The position numbers and the translations under genes are program-made. DNA of 5,317 bases from JBFLYE01 sp040756715 [NCBI: bacterium] (GTDB lineage Bacteria > UBA9089 > UBA9088). Numbering within the stretch: position 1 is the first letter of the stretch; each line of letters starts with the position of its first letter. The stretch spans positions 1 through 5,317 of the forward strand of contig JBFLYE010000104.1 in assembly GCA_040756715.1 (NCBI GenBank). The letters are read 5' to 3'. Shown piece after piece: positions 1 through 5,317 of this stretch. The notes below the pieces were generated by a model that was not told the origin of the DNA, searched no databases, and saw nothing but the letters and a program-made list of their open reading frames with translations.

Positions 1-139
1 AGAATTCATCTTTTTCGTTTATTAAATTAAGCTTATCTTTGTCATATTCAAGTCTTAGGCTCATTAAGGCAAGGTTTTGGTTATCACAAGAAAGATTAAG
101 GATAAGCTCATCATTAAGGGAAAGGGCGGTTTTGTTTGG
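1..139 (-). other. Start of a cohesin-like beta-sandwich domain (partial)
   Basis: The shifted frame ends in LILKPNKTALSLNDELILNL, then SCDNQNLALMSLRLEYDKDK, then LNLINE. The series of alternating hydrophobic strands, the D/N-rich loop and the L-x-L-x-YD-x3-L-x-x-x motif resemble the first third of cohesin and cohesin-like domains (usually about 140 residues). Only about 46 residues are visible, so this stays a suggestion. If right, the protein could bind a dockerin partner. Another Ig-like fold is the main alternative. Confidence 0.45.
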
Positions 140-442
140 TTTTAAGATTAGGTTAAGGGGTTCTTGGTTTTCAATAAAGGGAATTTCTCCTTGTTTAGAA
201 AGACTTAGGATAACCTCTGCTTCAAAGTAGGGATTGATTGATATATCTTCTTCTGTTTCCAAAGCCCCTTTTTCCTTCATTGCTTCATTTATTGCCGAAA
301 GAACCTCATTGTAGTCTAAGATTTCTTCTCTTGTTGTTCTTTTCTTAAGAACAAAGTTAAAAATGGTAAATTCATCCCTCTTTACCTTGCAACACTTAGC
401 TTGAGGATAATAGCCACATTTAAAGGCAAGGACAATATAGCA
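1..442 (-). CDS. C-terminal continuation of the giant protein in a shifted frame (partial, runs off the window)
   Basis: Codons from TGC at 442-440 down to TTC at 4-2 form 147 open codons with no stop and no start of their own at the beginning. The first residues, CYIVLAFKCGYYPQAK and then TIFNFVLKK, are what is needed to finish the fourth regulatory-like domain begun in the main frame. This is therefore the same protein after a frameshift, not a separate gene. After the domain come a charged, probably helical linker (about residues 36-66 of this segment) and a beta-rich region ending in a cohesin-like L-E-Y-D-x3-L motif. The segment overlaps the wrong-frame tail of the main frame by 23 bases. 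It has no ribosome-binding site. In an intact allele these residues would simply follow Pro 446-444. It continues beyond position 1. Confidence 0.85.
240..334 (-). other. Charged linker, probably helical
   Basis: In the shifted frame the residues TREEILDYNEVLSAINEAMK and the following EKGALETEED are rich in Glu, Lys, Ala and Leu. They contain no Pro, and only one Gly lies near the middle of the run. This is unlike the beta-rich sequence on both sides. It probably forms one or two helices between the fourth regulatory domain and the C-terminal region. I recognise no dockerin calcium-binding motif in it. Confidence 0.5.
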
Positions 443-578
443 TTGGTTTTAGGTCGGAAATGATGTAATCTCCATTTTTGTCTGTCCTATCCATGTCAAA
501 GTCACAACCAAAGTAGAAGACCCATACACCTGGTATAGATTTTTTGGTTTGCTTGTCGGTAATTGTTCCCATTATCCC
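341..578 (-). other. Carboxypeptidase-regulatory-like domain 4, interrupted by a frameshift
   Basis: The first half lies in the main frame: GIMGTITDKQTKKSIPGVWV, then DRTDKNGDYIISDLKP ending at 444. The second half lies in the shifted frame from 442: CYIVLAFKCGYYPQAKCCKV, then FTIFNFVLKK. Joined, they give a normal domain of about 80 residues. It is richer in Cys than the other three copies (YFGCDFD, KCGYY, KCCKV). Confidence 0.83.
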
Positions 579-3500
579 TTGAGCAGGTTTAACCAAGATG
601 GTTGTGGTTTTTGTGTTGTTGTCTTCCCTTAATTCAGGGATTGTATTGCCTGGGTCAACAATTACTGTGATGGTATGGGTTCCAATGGTAGCTGGTCTTG
701 TGATTACAAATCTTGCTTGAGTTTGTCCAGGGAATAAATGACCAATTGTCTTTGTTCCCTTAATCTGGTTATTTTCATCCAGGAAGATTACTTTGATAAG
801 ATTAGCATCAGCTTTTCCAATGTTTTTAATAAATGCAGTTATTCTTACCCTCTGGTATTGCTTTATAATATGGGATGGGCAGACCTTTATCTTTGTAATC
901 GTAAGATCGGGAAGGTTTGAGGGCAGGATATGGGTTGTGCAAGAGGCAGAGGATGTTATGCTTGTTTCTGGGCAATGGGATGTTCCGGTTATAGTAGCAT
1001 AATTTGTTATGGTTGCTGGTCCTGTTTGGGTTACAAAGTAATCTATTGTCGTTAAGCCTGATTGATTGGGGGTTAGGGTTCCAATCCAGATAGTTATATT
1101 GCTTCCATCAGGAAGGGTATCAATGAGATTAACATTGTAAAGGGTTGTTTGACCTGTGTTTGTGTAAGAGAGGGTGTAAGTTGTGGTAGACAGGGTGGTT
1201 GCTGTGGTTGGTCCTGTTTTTGTAAGGAATATGCCAGGGATGCCTATGATATGGGTTGTTGCTGAAGCAAAGGCTTGTATGGTTGCACTTGGGCAATCAG
1301 AGATTGCACTTATGGTGGCAATGTTTATGATGGTAGAAGATGCTGGCTCTTTGATGAAATAATCAAGGGTTAGGAAACCAGATTGAGAGGGATTTAAAGA
1401 GCCAAGGGAAAATGTCAGGGTAGAGCCATTGGGAAGGGTATCAATTAGGGTTATCTCATAAAGGATGGTTTGACCTGTGTTGGTATAAAGGAGGGTATAG
1501 GTTAGGGTTGAAAGGGTTAGGGTTTGGGTTGGTCCATCCTTTGTTAAGGATATTCCAGAGCTACCCATAGTAGGTGTTTCATAAAATTCATAGGCACCCA
1601 TATCAATCATCGCTATATCGTCCCTATTTCCATCTTTTATTCTTTCCTTTCCATCCTTATCAAATATAGGTAAAGCTGGTGCATTATTTGTTCCTGAATC
1701 TATGCAAGGGGATGAAAAGCCAAGATGAAAATCAGAAAATCCAACAAACTGGGGGTCAAGGGATATGTCATATAACCCAGCAAAGCAATTTGTGTAATTC
1801 CCAAATAAATTACCAAAGAGACAGTTATAGTTAATGGTCAAGAGGGAAGAATCAGAGAAGATACCCTCTCTATTTCCCACAATAATATTGTTTGTAATGA
1901 TTGAGGAGGAGGATTGACAAAGGATACCATTCTCCTTGTTCCTTACCATATCATTATTGGTAATGATGGGAGATGAGGATAGGGATACAATGCCAGAGCC
2001 ATTATTTTCTGCAATTACATTGTTGGTAATTGTTCCCAAAAATGAGCTAAAAGATATCCCAGATTTGCCATTTTTGCTTATTGTGTTATAAATAATCTCA
2101 GGAGAAGAAGATTGGGAAAAGATGCCGTATCCCTCATTTTCTCCTATTGTATTATTGCTGATAAGGGGTGATGAATCAGAGCAATTGATACCATTTCTGC
2201 CATTTTTTATTATTATATTGCCTATAATGGGTGGAGATGATGATAGGGATATAACCCTATATTCCATATTTTCTGCAATTATATTATTGGTAATGCTTCC
2301 TAAAAATGAGCTACAGGATATTCCCGATTTACCATTCTCTCTTATGGTGTTGCCAGTAATCACAGAAGAAGAGGACCTACAGTAAATCCCATTTTTGCTA
2401 TTTTTTAAGATAATGTTATTAACAATGGTTAAATCTGTGCTATTTATGCAATATATCCCATTGTCTCCAGAATTTATTATAAAACCAGAGATAACCGCAC
2501 CCCTTGCTCCATCACCACTAAAAATTACCGCATCTTTGCCAGAAGATGAAGAAATCGTTGGTGTTCCTATACCAATAAGGGCAATACGCTTGTCTATATA
2601 AATATTTTCTCTATATTCTCCAGCTGCCACAGAAACCGTCCCTTTAGCGGCGCAATAAAAAATCCCCTCATTTATTGTCCTATAAGGCTTATCAAATGTG
2701 CCAAGCTCAATATCTATATTCTCATCATCAACATAGATAATCTCTGCCGGGGTTAAGCTAATATTGACTATAGTCATAGAGCCTCTATTTACCTCTATAT
2801 TTTCGGTATATGAGCCATAAAATCCCGTTGCCCTTGCACAAATAACATATTTATCTGGCTTAAGGTATAAAGCATAATTGCCTTGACTATCCGTATATCC
2901 ATTCGTATTGAATGCCTCTACCATTGCTCCTGGAATGAAGACCCCACTAGAGGCATCTGTAATTTTGCCAGCAATGATACCATTTTGAGGAATTCCTTGA
3001 TACTCATAGGCACCTATATCTACAATGCCATTTACTATACGAGGATTTCCATCCTTGTCAAAAGGAAGAATACCCAAGGCTGTATTTGAGCCCCTATCTA
3101 TGCAGAAGGATGTGAATTGAAGATGAAAGTCAGGAGGGCTTATAAATTGCGGGTCAATAGATAGATCATTTGTTCCTGCAAGACAATTTCCATAATTTTC
3201 ATTTCCCGTTAGCCCATTTCTGAAAAGACAATTATAATCAATCTTTGGATTTGAGGAAATATCACCCCGATAGATGCCATAACCGTAATTTATCGGGCTA
3301 TTTAAGGCAATAATGTTATTGGTGATGAATGGAGAGGAATTAAAACAGGAAATGCCATTTCCCCAATTATTTACAATTGTGTTATTTACAATAATAGGAG
3401 AGGAATTTTGACACATAATCCCAGAATATGTATTTTCTGTAATTACATTGTTTGTAATTATTGGCTCTGCCCCATTTATACAGGATATACCATTGCCACC

Positions 3501-5306
3501 CTCTCCATAAAAACTTTTTGCACCCCTTATCTTGAAACCAGAGATTACTGCATTATCTGCCTCATTGCCCTCAAAGGTTACTGCATTTCCCGAAGAAGCA
3601 GGGTTGATTACGGGTGTGCCTGTGCCAATTAGGACAATTCTTTTGTTGATGTAGACAAGCTTAGTATATGTCCCCCCTTTCACTGAGACTGTCCCTCCCA
3701 CTGGGCAGTAAAAGATACCCTCTTTTATTGTCCGATAAGGCTTATCAAATGTGCCAAGCTCTATACCTTGATAATTGCAATCTACATAGAGCATTTTAGC
3801 AGGGCTTAAGACAAAATTGAGAATAGTTCTCTTTCCCTCAAATACCTCTATATTTTCTGTATATCTGCCATAAAACCCAGTTGCCCTTGCAACCAAAGAA
3901 TATGTCCCAGGGTTAATTTGTATGGAGTAGTCTCCCTGGGTGTCACTAATTGAATTATGAAGGTGGGAACCAATTACTTCTACCTTTGCCTGGGCAATAG
4001 GATTACCCATAATATCAACCACCCTGCCGGTAATTGTGCCATAATAGGGAGGCTCCTTTGGATAAGGCTGAGATCCACCTCCTTCCTCTCTTGGCTGCAA
4101 GGCAAAATTCACTATGCTTGTTTTTTCTTTAAATACCTCTATATTTGTGGATTCCTCCCAAAATCCATATGCCCATGCAGAAATGTCATATCTACCTGGT
4201 TTGATGCGTATAATATAGTGGCCATTTATATCCGTCTTTACCCCCTCATTGGATACCTGTATGCTTGCTCCATTAATGGGAAGCCCATTTGAGGCATCTG
4301 TAACTGTGCCAGCAATAATGCCATATTGAGGAATTCCAGGAAACTCATAAGCACCAATGTCAACAATGCCATTAACAATCCTTGGTTTTCCATCCTTATC
4401 AAATATAGGTAAAGCTGGTGCATTATTTGTTCCTGAATCTATACAAGGGGATGTAGAGCCAAGGTGAAAGTCATCAAAAGCTATAAACTGAGGGTCAAAG
4501 GATATATTGTATAATCCAGCAGAACAATTTCTATAGTTAGAAGATGAATTGCCATAGACACAGTTATAGTTAATAATTAAATTGGAAAAGTCAGAGAGAA
4601 TACCCTCTCTATTTTCTATGATAATATTATTGGTAATAATTGAAGAAGAGGATTGAGAAAAGATGCCATATTCCTTGTTTCTTATTATGTCATTATTGGT
4701 AATAATTGGGGATGATGATAAAGATACAATCCCAGACTCTGTATTTTCTGCAATTACATTGTTGGTAATTGTTCCCAAAAATGAGCTAAAAGATATTCCC
4801 GATTTGCCATTTTTGCTTATCGTGTTATAAATGATGTTTGAAATGGATGAAGAACAATAGATGCCATTTAATGTATTTCCTGTAATTACATTATTATTAA
4901 GGGTTATAGAAGAATCATTACAATTAAACCCATTTTTCCCATTTCCTGTGATTTCGTTATTCCTAATGATTGGGGAGGAAAAATCACAAAAAATGCCATC
5001 TTTCTTGTTTTCTGTGATAATATTGCCATCAATAATCGGCGAAGAGAAATCACAATATATACCATTTTCCCTATTCCCTGTGATTGTGTTATCAATAATA
5101 GTTGGGTCTGCACCATTTGTGCAATATATCCCATTTCTTCCTTTACTTATTGTAAATCCAGAGATTACAGCTCCACCTACCTCATCTCCATCAAAGATTA
5201 CCGCATCTTTATTTTCTAAAGAACTATAGTATCTTCCATTACTTAGTGCAAAAATAGTATTTAAGAAATTTTGAATTCTAAATTTTGAATTTTTATTTGA
5301 AAAGGT
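420..5306 (-). CDS. Giant modular beta-helix surface protein, main frame; 5' end missing, 3' end cut by a frameshift
   Basis: One uninterrupted frame runs from just after a TAA at 5309-5307 down to a TAA at 422-420. Part of it, 1452 codons, lies downstream of a TTG at 4778. That TTG is unlikely to be the start: it is the Leu of an FLG motif inside a repeat, and 176 more in-frame codons upstream encode further coils of the same repeat. No ATG, GTG or TTG occurs in those 176 codons, and the first in-frame ATG is at 4010, inside a folded domain. Domain order is beta-helix 1, two carboxypeptidase-regulatory-like domains, beta-helix 2, a third regulatory domain, beta-helix 3, two DUF11-like domains, CARDB-like, and a partial fourth regulatory domain. 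The frame then ends in an out-of-place tail, MLYCPCL. Family knowledge points to a secreted or surface-exposed structural or adhesive protein. No catalytic residues, signal peptide or membrane segment are visible. The exact function is unknown. Confidence 0.9.
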   Translation of the reverse strand, partial: TFSNKNSKFRIQNFLNTIFALSNGRYYSSLENKDAVIFDGDEVGGAVISGFTISKGRNGIYCTNGADPTIIDNTITGNRENGIYCDFSSPIIDGNIITENKKDGIFCDFSSPIIRNNEITGNGKNGFNCNDSSITLNNNVITGNTLNGIYCSSSISNIIYNTISKNGKSGISFSSFLGTITNNVIAENTESGIVSLSSSPIITNNDIIRNKEYGIFSQSSSSIITNNIIIENREGILSDFSNLIINYNCVYGNSSSNYRNCSAGLYNISFDPQFIAFDDFHLGSTSPCIDSGTNNAPALPIFDKDGKPRIVNGIVDIGAYEFPGIPQYGIIAGTVTDASNGLPINGASIQVSNEGVKTDINGHYIIRIKPGRYDISAWAYGFWEESTNIEVFKEKTSIVNFALQPREEGGGSQPYPKEPPYYGTITGRVVDIMGNPIAQAKVEVIGSHLHNSISDTQGDYSIQINPGTYSLVARATGFYGRYTENIEVFEGKRTILNFVLSPAKMLYVDCNYQGIELGTFDKPYRTIKEGIFYCPVGGTVSVKGGTYTKLVYINKRIVLIGTGTPVINPASSGNAVTFEGNEADNAVISGFKIRGAKSFYGEGGNGISCINGAEPIITNNVITENTYSGIMCQNSSPIIVNNTIVNNWGNGISCFNSSPFITNNIIALNSPINYGYGIYRGDISSNPKIDYNCLFRNGLTGNENYGNCLAGTNDLSIDPQFISPPDFHLQFTSFCIDRGSNTALGILPFDKDGNPRIVNGIVDIGAYEYQGIPQNGIIAGKITDASSGVFIPGAMVEAFNTNGYTDSQGNYALYLKPDKYVICARATGFYGSYTENIEVNRGSMTIVNISLTPAEIIYVDDENIDIELGTFDKPYRTINEGIFYCAAKGTVSVAAGEYRENIYIDKRIALIGIGTPTISSSSGKDAVIFSGDGARGAVISGFIINSGDNGIYCINSTDLTIVNNIILKNSKNGIYCRSSSSVITGNTIRENGKSGISCSSFLGSITNNIIAENMEYRVISLSSSPPIIGNIIIKNGRNGINCSDSSPLISNNTIGENEGYGIFSQSSSPEIIYNTISKNGKSGISFSSFLGTITNNVIAENNGSGIVSLSSSPIITNNDMVRNKENGILCQSSSSIITNNIIVGNREGIFSDSSLLTINYNCLFGNLFGNYTNCFAGLYDISLDPQFVGFSDFHLGFSSPCIDSGTNNAPALPIFDKDGKERIKDGNRDDIAMIDMGAYEFYETPTMGSSGISLTKDGPTQTLTLSTLTYTLLYTNTGQTILYEITLIDTLPNGSTLTFSLGSLNPSQSGFLTLDYFIKEPASSTIINIATISAISDCPSATIQAFASATTHIIGIPGIFLTKTGPTTATTLSTTTYTLSYTNTGQTTLYNVNLIDTLPDGSNITIWIGTLTPNQSGLTTIDYFVTQTGPATITNYATITGTSHCPETSITSSASCTTHILPSNLPDLTITKIKVCPSHIIKQYQRVRITAFIKNIGKADANLIKVIFLDENNQIKGTKTIGHLFPGQTQARFVITRPATIGTHTITVIVDPGNTIPELREDNNTKTTTILVKPAQGIMGTITDKQTKKSIPGVWVFYFGCDFDMDRTDKNGDYIISDLKPMLYCPCL
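588..911 (-). other. CARDB-like domain
   Basis: PDLTITKIKVCPSHIIKQYQ is followed by ITAFIKNIGKADANLIKVIF, LFPGQTQ and VIVDPGNTIPELREDNNTKT. This is the typical CARDB run: P-D-L at the start, N-x-G-x-A in the middle, then P-G, then D-P-x-N-x-I-x-E-x-x-E/D-x-N-N at the end. CARDB (cell-adhesion-related domain found in bacteria) is an Ig-like module of extracellular proteins. Its position after the DUF11 stalk fits a surface role. Confidence 0.88.
927..1235 (-). other. DUF11-like domain 2
   Basis: This is a tandem copy of the preceding domain, spaced 107 residues from it (start to start). It opens with GIFLTKTGPTTATTLSTTTY, has SYTNTGQTTLYNVNLIDTLP in the middle, and ends TITGTSHCP...CTTHI. It is nearly the same length as copy 1, with a very short GIP joint between them, as expected of a rigid stalk. 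Confidence 0.85.
1248..1556 (-). other. DUF11-like domain 1
   Basis: The segment from GISLTKDGPTQTLTLSTLTY runs through YTNTGQTILYEITLIDTLPN and GSLNPSQSG to ASATTHI. It shows the DUF11 pattern: a K-x-GP start, then YT-x-x-YTNTG, then DTLP-[ND]-G, then a final Thr/Ala-rich strand. These Ig-like repeats usually form stalks in secreted or wall-associated proteins. A Cys-Pro near the end (SDCPSA) is matched in the next copy (SHCPET). Confidence 0.85.
1643..2099 (-). repeat. Large direct repeat, copy B (module 3)
   Basis: This 457-nt block matches 4382-4838 with a constant offset of 2739 nt (913 codons) and no indels. Two perfectly identical tracts lie near its ends: 2003-2057 (55 nt) and 1648-1703 (56 nt). 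Between them the copies differ at many codons. By hand count about 103 of 130 compared residues are identical. Confidence 0.88.
1839..2429 (-). repeat. Nine beta-helix coils of module 3, with an 88-residue super-repeat
   Basis: Eight coils of exactly 22 residues begin at 2429, 2363, 2297, 2231, 2165, 2099, 2033 and 1967. A 21-residue coil occupies 1901-1839. Coils 2-5 and coils 6-9 form a higher-order repeat of four coils (88 residues, 264 nt). The pair marked by NGKSGIS-[CF]-SSFLG and then ITNN-[IV]-IAEN occurs at 2363 and again at 2099. Module 1 carries a third copy of that pair at 4838. Confidence 0.88.
2745..2981 (-). other. Carboxypeptidase-regulatory-like domain 3
   Basis: It opens with GIIAGKITDASSGVFIPGA, has YTDSQGNYALYLKPDKYVI in the middle, and ends with YTENIEVNRGSMTIVNISL. 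It begins right after the GAYEYQGIPQN end of beta-helix 2, just as domain 1 begins after GAYEFPGIPQY of beta-helix 1. The domain keeps the two-residue spacing between Pro and Tyr (P-D-K-Y) that helps diagnose the frameshift in the fourth copy. Confidence 0.8.
3000..3791 (-). other. Beta-helix module 2, complete with both caps
   Basis: The N-terminal cap reads YVDCNYQGIELGTFDKPYRT, then GIFYCPVGGTVSVKGGTY, then INKRIVLIGTG, resembling the DUF1565-like opening of many secreted beta-helix proteins. Coils at about 3461-3249 include IITNNVITEN and IIVNNTIVNN and are fewer than in modules 1 and 3. The last coil contains an insertion (SPINYGYGIYRGDISSN). The C-terminal cap and tail (YNCLF, NCLAGTNDLSIDPQF, DFHLQ, FCIDRGSN, FDKDGNPR, DIGAYEY) match the other two modules. 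No catalytic residues can be named. Confidence 0.85.
3798..4040 (-). other. Carboxypeptidase-regulatory-like domain 2
   Basis: GTITGRVVDIMGNPIAQAKV opens the domain, SISDTQGDYSIQINPGTYS follows, and it closes with YTENIEVFEGKRTILNFVL. The fold signature is the same as in domain 1, and it shares the ATGFYGRYTENIEV stretch with domain 3 (ATGFYGSYTENIEV). It leads with almost no linker into the N-terminal cap of beta-helix 2, as domain 3 does into beta-helix 3. The regulatory domain and the following helix cap therefore look like one duplicated unit. Confidence 0.8.
4092..4322 (-). other. Carboxypeptidase-regulatory-like domain 1
   Basis: The segment runs from GIIAGTVTDASNGLPINGA through KTDINGHYIIRIKPGRYDIS to VNFALQPR. 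This is the pattern of the transthyretin-like beta-sandwich of the CarboxypepD_reg families: G-x-V-x-D...G-x-P-I-x-G-A, then T-D-x-x-G-x-Y, then P-G-x-Y, then a closing NF-x-L strand. Such domains are non-catalytic spacers or binding modules in secreted proteins. A Gly/Pro-rich linker (EEGGGSQPYPKEPPYYG) joins it to the next copy. The family call is by eye. Confidence 0.8.
4382..4838 (-). repeat. Large direct repeat, copy A (module 1)
   Basis: This is the partner of 1643-2099. The identical tracts are 4742-4796 and 4387-4442. It covers four and a half coils, the C-terminal cap and most of the anchor-Q-like tail. It ends where module 3 has a six-residue insertion after FDKDGK. The block also contains the TTG at 4778, which has an exact in-frame counterpart at 2039-2037 coding Leu in the middle of module 3. 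Confidence 0.88.
4578..5102 (-). repeat. Eight beta-helix coils of module 1, period 66 nt (22 residues)
   Basis: Seven coils of exactly 22 residues begin at 5102, 5036, 4970, 4904, 4838, 4772 and 4706, followed by a 21-residue coil from 4640 to 4578. The pattern is roughly I-x-x-N-x-I-x-x-N-x-x-x-G-I-x-C/S, followed by a Ser-rich turn often ending in SSP. The Asn at the N-x-I and x-N positions stack into the asparagine ladders known in right-handed beta-helices. Cys occupies coil position 17 in the first four coils and in the partial coil before them. It is replaced by Phe or Ser in the later coils. Confidence 0.9.
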
Positions 5307-5317
5307 TTATGTTTTTA
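5222..5317. other. Probable non-coding or degenerate 5' flank
   Basis: All three minus-strand frames were read here. None shows a helix cap, a signal peptide or a credible start. The main frame is closed by TAA at 5309-5307. The only ATG (5239-5237) is out of frame and meets TAG after seven codons. No Shine-Dalgarno-like AGGAGG run and no convincing promoter were seen. Confidence 0.55.
5266..5291. repeat. AT-rich 14-nt tandem repeat next to the broken 5' end
   Basis: The 12-mer AAATTTTGAATT occurs at 5266-5277 and again at 5280-5291, spaced 14 nt apart. Low-complexity repeats of this kind are typical of spacers between genes. The main frame reads through it as KFRIQNF without resemblance to any module, so this stretch is probably not coding. 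Confidence 0.6.

Follow-up and report, generated by a model that had tools for sequence, protein, structure and literature searches.

The minus-strand gene that fills nearly all of the window, which is the whole 5,317-base contig analysed here (G000:C104), is divided over two reading frames inside its fourth CarboxypepD_reg domain. We consider an ordinary, recent loss of two bases in an already damaged gene copy, that is, a pseudogene in the sampled cells, to be slightly better than an even bet. On this reading, the two bases would have been lost between the conserved Pro and Tyr of that domain, translation would stop seven residues on, without the cohesin-like and sorting domains, and a MITE-like repeat would in addition have truncated the 5' side of the same gene copy. 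Both lesions would then be real in the cell and the copy presumably no longer functional. The break is either an ordinary broken gene or an assembly slip, and no new mechanism is involved.

Gene layout and place of the frame change

The host draft genome comprises 1,552,737 bases in 218 contigs and is 96% complete. The main frame of the window gene holds 1628 codons between stops, with no internal stop (Table 1). A Pfam search with its 1452-aa frame returned Beta_helix/NosD blocks, CarboxypepD_reg-type domains (four stretches matching PF13715), repeats of the DUF7507/DUF11 type and CARDB; such domains point to a large protein that is exported or sits at the cell surface. We read the window as holding one copy of a family of large exported surface proteins. 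In this family, beta-helix blocks alternate with CarboxypepD_reg domains, and after them come DUF11-type repeats, a CARDB domain, the fourth CarboxypepD_reg domain, a cohesin-like domain and, in relatives, Por_Secre_tail at the C-terminal end.

Table 1. Features of the window (coordinates on the 5,317-base contig).
Feature	Position	Strand	Remark
Shifted frame to contig edge: end of fourth CarboxypepD_reg, helical linker, putative first part of cohesin-like domain	2..442	-	
TAA stop of main frame, after MLYCPCL	420..422	-	
Main open frame	423..5306	-	first ATG/GTG/TTG in frame only at 4778
Frame-change site: one odd base between Pro codon (446-444) and first tail codon (442-440)	443	-	
First half of fourth CarboxypepD_reg-like domain	444..575	-	weak partial Pfam match alone (P0005)
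CARDB domain	606..911	-	Pfam
Two DUF11/DUF7507-type repeats	927..1556	-	
Third beta-helix block, right-handed (NosD/Beta_helix type)	1809..2528	-	limits by eye
Third CarboxypepD_reg domain, intact, P-DK-Y	2748..2981	-	
Second beta-helix block	3213..3581	-	limits by eye
Second CarboxypepD_reg domain, intact, P-GT-Y	3801..4040	-	
First CarboxypepD_reg domain, intact, P-GR-Y	4092..4322	-	
First beta-helix block, start cut by repeat	4548..5224	-	limits by eye
MITE-like repeat, first 93 bases, internal-deletion form; contig ends inside	5225..5317	+	

The window gene shares the domain layout and the conserved P-G-x-Y turn of CarboxypepD_reg (PF13620/PF13715); unlike the usual domain, its fourth copy is divided over two frames. 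When the halves were scored separately, the first half gave 19.4 with PF13715 and 16.9 with PF13620, both below the cut-offs, and the tail frame alone gave no CarboxypepD_reg Pfam match. The 1452-aa frame passes the CarboxypepD_reg cut-off through its other copies, while the intact homologue in G003 passes that of PF13620 (35.9 vs 32.3).

The main frame, read on the minus strand, ends in ...TDKNGDYIISDLKP-MLYCPCL-stop, equivalently ...SDLKPMLYCPCL-stop; its stop codon occupies 422-420. From 442, the shifted frame reads CYIVLAFKCGYYPQ... and meets no stop in the 147 codons down to position 2. The contig edge cuts it there, so that 147 codons are a lower bound. Re-reading of the sequence thus agrees with the earlier note, made from the letters of this DNA only, which had described the same stop after MLYCPCL and the same open shifted frame. 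The main-frame residues closely match those of the G003 homologue (TDSNGRYIIGDLKP vs TDKNGDYIISDLKP) down to the Pro codon at 446-444, and the tail-frame residues match homologues from 442 onward. Hence, the change of frame sits at 443, within one base. A hexamer coding model, with 40 further contigs of this genome as its training set, scored the main frame over 900-444 at +61.4 and the tail frame over 442-2 at +66.4, compared with -48.9 for the tail frame over 700-448, and in 60-base steps the preference switched inside the block starting at 482. Neither a homopolymer nor a simple repeat is present at the break.

Size of the lesion and the tail beyond it

The spacing between Pro and Tyr gives the size of the lesion. 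Six unbroken homologues, each a single open frame, extend across the break (G003 C221 and C170, G004 C235 and C83, G015 C215, G017 C78), and in all six the Pro is followed by two residues before the Tyr, which is a Val in one of them. When the post-break part of the homologue in G002 (C175) is added to these six, P-G-x precedes the next Tyr (Val in one) in seven of seven. The same spacing is seen in all three intact CarboxypepD_reg copies of the window, where the earlier note had read P-GR-Y, P-GT-Y and P-DK-Y and where we found KPGRYD, NPGTYS and KPDKYV.

A domain profile seeded with nine copies was searched against 150 sequences (149 loci, many of them overlapping, plus the window). The 36 matches represented 24 distinct copies. 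In 23 of these, exactly two residues separated the Pro column from the Tyr column; the remaining copy is the window's own tail, which begins after the break. Within those 23, the first column held Pro in 15 and Ala, Ser, Val or Asp in the other 8. The window has four bases between Pro and Tyr versus six in the homologues, and is two bases short. The preference for a 2-nt loss over a 1-nt gain, first argued from the three intact copies, is thus upheld by the homologues and the profile search. A one-base gain is less apt because it would also require the loss of a codon; a mixed event of this kind, e.g. one base gained and one codon lost, may have happened, and needs two changes. The comparison with related genomes that had been proposed as a check was carried out, and all six unbroken homologues were in frame across the site. 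Altogether, six of the eight homologous copies over this region are in frame, and the two broken ones, those of the window and G002, are broken at different sites.

The tail frame is real coding sequence. Matches to it were found in 4 of 98 genomes, the window's own genome counted, with 50% identity to G002 (residues 2-144, E=6.2e-35), 37% to G004 (5.6e-13) and 77% over 31 residues to G001 (2.5e-9). With off-frame stops occurring at 0.060 per codon, 147 codons in a row would stay open by chance with a probability of about 1e-4; 63 of 11,543 off-frame segments reached that length, in a set that we believe includes spurious frames over real genes. A scan of a genome-contig collection with the tail sequence gave no match, the scan with an alignment as the query gave 10 loci, and the scan of a viral-contig collection gave no match.

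What would be lost with the tail can be read from the relatives. In the G003 homologue, the frame runs on for some 290 residues beyond the break, and a Por_Secre_tail domain (E 1e-10) forms its end. This domain is found at the C-terminus of both the G003 and G002 homologues, and the corresponding part of the window lies off the contig. Judging from these relatives, the Por_Secre_tail sorting domain would be lost too, which goes beyond what the earlier note stated. Por_Secre_tail would suit a cargo of type IX secretion. SprA, a part of that system, was searched for and found in none of five genomes, yet also in none of 14 control genomes.

The earlier note had called the lost C-terminus cohesin-like, and this was borne out at the fold level only. 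The domain after the break was modelled from the G002 sequence, with the window and the other rows as the alignment, at a mean pLDDT of 76. Foldseek ranked 2jh2 first for this model (E 3e-6, 11% identity). The domain shares a beta-sandwich fold with the cohesin-like modules of PDB 2jh2 and 2w1n, while the identity to them is only 11-12% and the TM-scores are 0.36-0.63. An initial Foldseek run with a multi-domain model returned mostly multi-domain chains at high rmsd, with CARDB structures and scaffoldin chains listed as well.

A probable second lesion at a MITE-like repeat

Beyond the frame change described in the earlier note, the 5' side of the gene joins a multi-copy MITE-like repeat exactly at the repeat terminus: the coding sequence meets TATAGTATCTTCC... 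at 5225, the exact end of a dispersed repeat. The main-frame stop lies inside the repeat at 5309-5307, and no in-frame ATG, GTG or TTG occurs until 4778. The missing 5' part was sought at the edges of own-genome contigs, with the matching part of another block as the query, and none was found there. The gene copy seems to be cut at both ends, i.e. damaged twice.

A search with 146 bases of the repeat from contig C60 gave at least 66 matches in the window's own genome. At least 40 were long, covering 116-146 bases of the query at 95-100% identity, the query's own place included; scoring took in 40 of the 222 candidates, and the window's own copy is absent from the scored matches. Among the scored matches in relatives, 9 partial ones were found in G001, of the same genus, and 2 in G002, of the same family. 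Besides window 5225-5317, this nearly identical repeat was noted at L123 4470, L133 1390, L137 4149, L145 12989, L113 11215, L138 10913 and L134 10000. Seven copies with both ends found measured 164, 201, 241, 241, 242, 245 and 260 bases, one of them holding a run of N. The repeat ends form imperfect terminal inverted repeats, TATAGT...ACTATA. Across the 40 contigs taken, 15 of 22 left ends of the repeat lay no more than about 180 bases from the end of a contig.

Weighing the explanations

From sequence comparison, the window gene has the hallmarks of a frameshifted pseudogene: a single homologous protein is matched by its two halves, each in another frame, and unbroken homologues exist. Frameshifted or apparent pseudogenes of draft genomes likewise show two frames of one protein and a small indel; the window case differs from them in the break outside a homopolymer and in the apparent repeat insertion. 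Frame transitions are the subject of the GeneTack survey (PMC3711429). The earlier note had regarded the change as recent, or as an error. Consistent with this, the tail is still as coding as the stretch preceding it in the hexamer model, without further decay, as a draft error would also give.

A consensus or assembly error in this short-contig draft is the close rival to a real two-base loss. The gene of the cell would then be in frame and the full protein made, and we give this a substantial chance that falls somewhat short of even. Cooley and Wright (PMC11017572) report that many putative bacterial pseudogenes stem from assembly errors. The family is repeat-rich, and its C-terminal regions are a frequent place for contigs of these drafts to end: in 14 of 20 stretches taken from G000 and G001, the open frame of the C-terminal domain reaches the contig edge without a stop. 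Moreover, a paralogue on contig C60 is 93% identical to the window over 247 bases, with more than 100 in a row identical, and is cut off at window position 680; a second copy of window 1-700 was sought in the assembly and none was found. Given this match and the single copy, reads of the window copy and of C60 may have been merged over the stretch with the break. Frame breaks also occur in two core-type genes of this draft, in MnmA at a T7 run and in a BPD_transp_2 permease at a T9 run. Against an error, these two breaks lie in homopolymer runs, whereas the two-base change in the window lies outside one, and the same gene copy appears to have a separate 5' lesion. As the break is outside a homopolymer, a simple read error is less likely.

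These two core-type genes came from a scan of the draft for frame breaks. The scan was heuristic and was loosened after its first form left the window unflagged; it covered 40 own contigs (336,019 bases), a non-random set in which about a dozen had come up in earlier matches, some of them by chance. Together with the window, 11 pairs were flagged: the window itself, two confirmed by Pfam on both sides of the break, and eight that by eye were neighbouring genes or unclear. In MnmA (L131 4108-5143, G000:C88), PF03054 and then PF20259/PF20258 are divided into two frames at T7. The permease, of LivH type for branched-chain amino acids (L149 7882-8756, G000:C34), is in two frames at T9. Both fit broken genes and may equally be errors. 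In control scans, the heuristic flagged 4 pairs in G003 (120,299 bases) and 3 in G002 (185,194 bases), one of the latter being the break in C175. It was also observed that a minus-strand frame on another own contig (L124, G000:C16, about 8283-9386), which we take to be HflX-like, has no usual start codon near the stop of the preceding gene, possibly owing to a rare start or another small indel.

The remaining six of the 20 stretches consisted of two long frames (1435 and 1071 codons) and four with an upstream stop inside the contig, namely G000 C164 (decayed), G000 C59 (weak, E 3e-4), G001 C165 and G001 C10. The C59 match is probably an unrelated gene. In the other three, a C-terminal domain copy has a stop shortly upstream, and such copies fit a family with decaying copies. 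The 20 stretches are part of the listed short frames, the rest being mostly in G001. The idea of recurrent frame breaks, raised by the many short C-terminal frames in G000 and G001, was largely dropped, since contig edges explain most of those taken.

The two G001 copies (C165, L050; C10, L052), both on the minus strand, are short C-terminal sorting domains of the LLQSYPNPA... type with an upstream stop and no matching passenger, and are truncated or decayed. Contig G000:C164 bears a decayed, stop-containing copy of the C-terminal sorting domain and also what we take to be an IS630-type transposase in two overlapping frames (L041 2569-3554).

The second broken relative bears on the remaining explanations. 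The G002 homologue (L092 4042-5521, G002:C175) has lost its frame in the same CarboxypepD_reg domain as the window gene, with a shift of the same direction, about 30 to 40 residues earlier and beside an AATAAAA tract; it is best read as having one base too many. Because the sites differ and the frame is intact in six other homologues, we take the two breaks to be independent events. Since two genera of one family, those of the window and of G002, each carry a break in the same domain and in the +1 direction, one could suppose that selection favours a frame break that separates passenger and sorting domain, the C-terminal domain being switched off by recoding or by reversible mutation. We hold this to be very improbable. 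If it were true, turning the C-terminal domain off may be how these bacteria either shed the surface protein or keep it.

Phase variation, in which a reversible change of tract length would switch the C-terminal domain on and off, has a similarly slender chance. It would suit a surface-protein family, and the G002 break, elsewhere in the domain, stands beside an A4 tract; the window break, however, has neither a simple repeat nor a homopolymer, and the other six homologues are all in frame.

Recoding is extremely unlikely. It would take the form of a +1 slip near the break or at CTT-TAA-A, yielding a short form without the sorting domain besides the full-length form. A CTT followed by a stop, with a shift in the +1 direction, is a feature of the prfB-type programmed frameshift. 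The window likewise has CTT and a stop, a +1 move at the CTT ahead of the stop enters the tail frame, and the G002 homologue is broken in the same domain and direction as well. Unlike in the prfB type, conservation is lacking: the other six homologues all keep the frame, and the window and G002 breaks are at different places. No stimulator was seen either. RNA folding of three stretches around the site, by a tool that covers structures without pseudoknots, was no better than that of shuffles (z -0.31, 0.45 and -0.04), and by eye no Shine-Dalgarno-like spur was present upstream of the CTT. In addition, the tail-frame residues CYIVLAF, encoded upstream of the stop, resemble those of homologues, so the frame change precedes the stop.

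The two-base loss in an already damaged copy is our preferred reading, with a draft error close to it. For annotation, this draft calls for caution: it has frame breaks even in core-type genes, and its split genes should not be given a biological meaning without reads. The MITE-like repeat, which is abundant and ends many contigs of the draft, is a more useful by-product than the frame break. The break matters little by itself; the true proteins of the family extend further, by a cohesin-like domain and a sorting domain.
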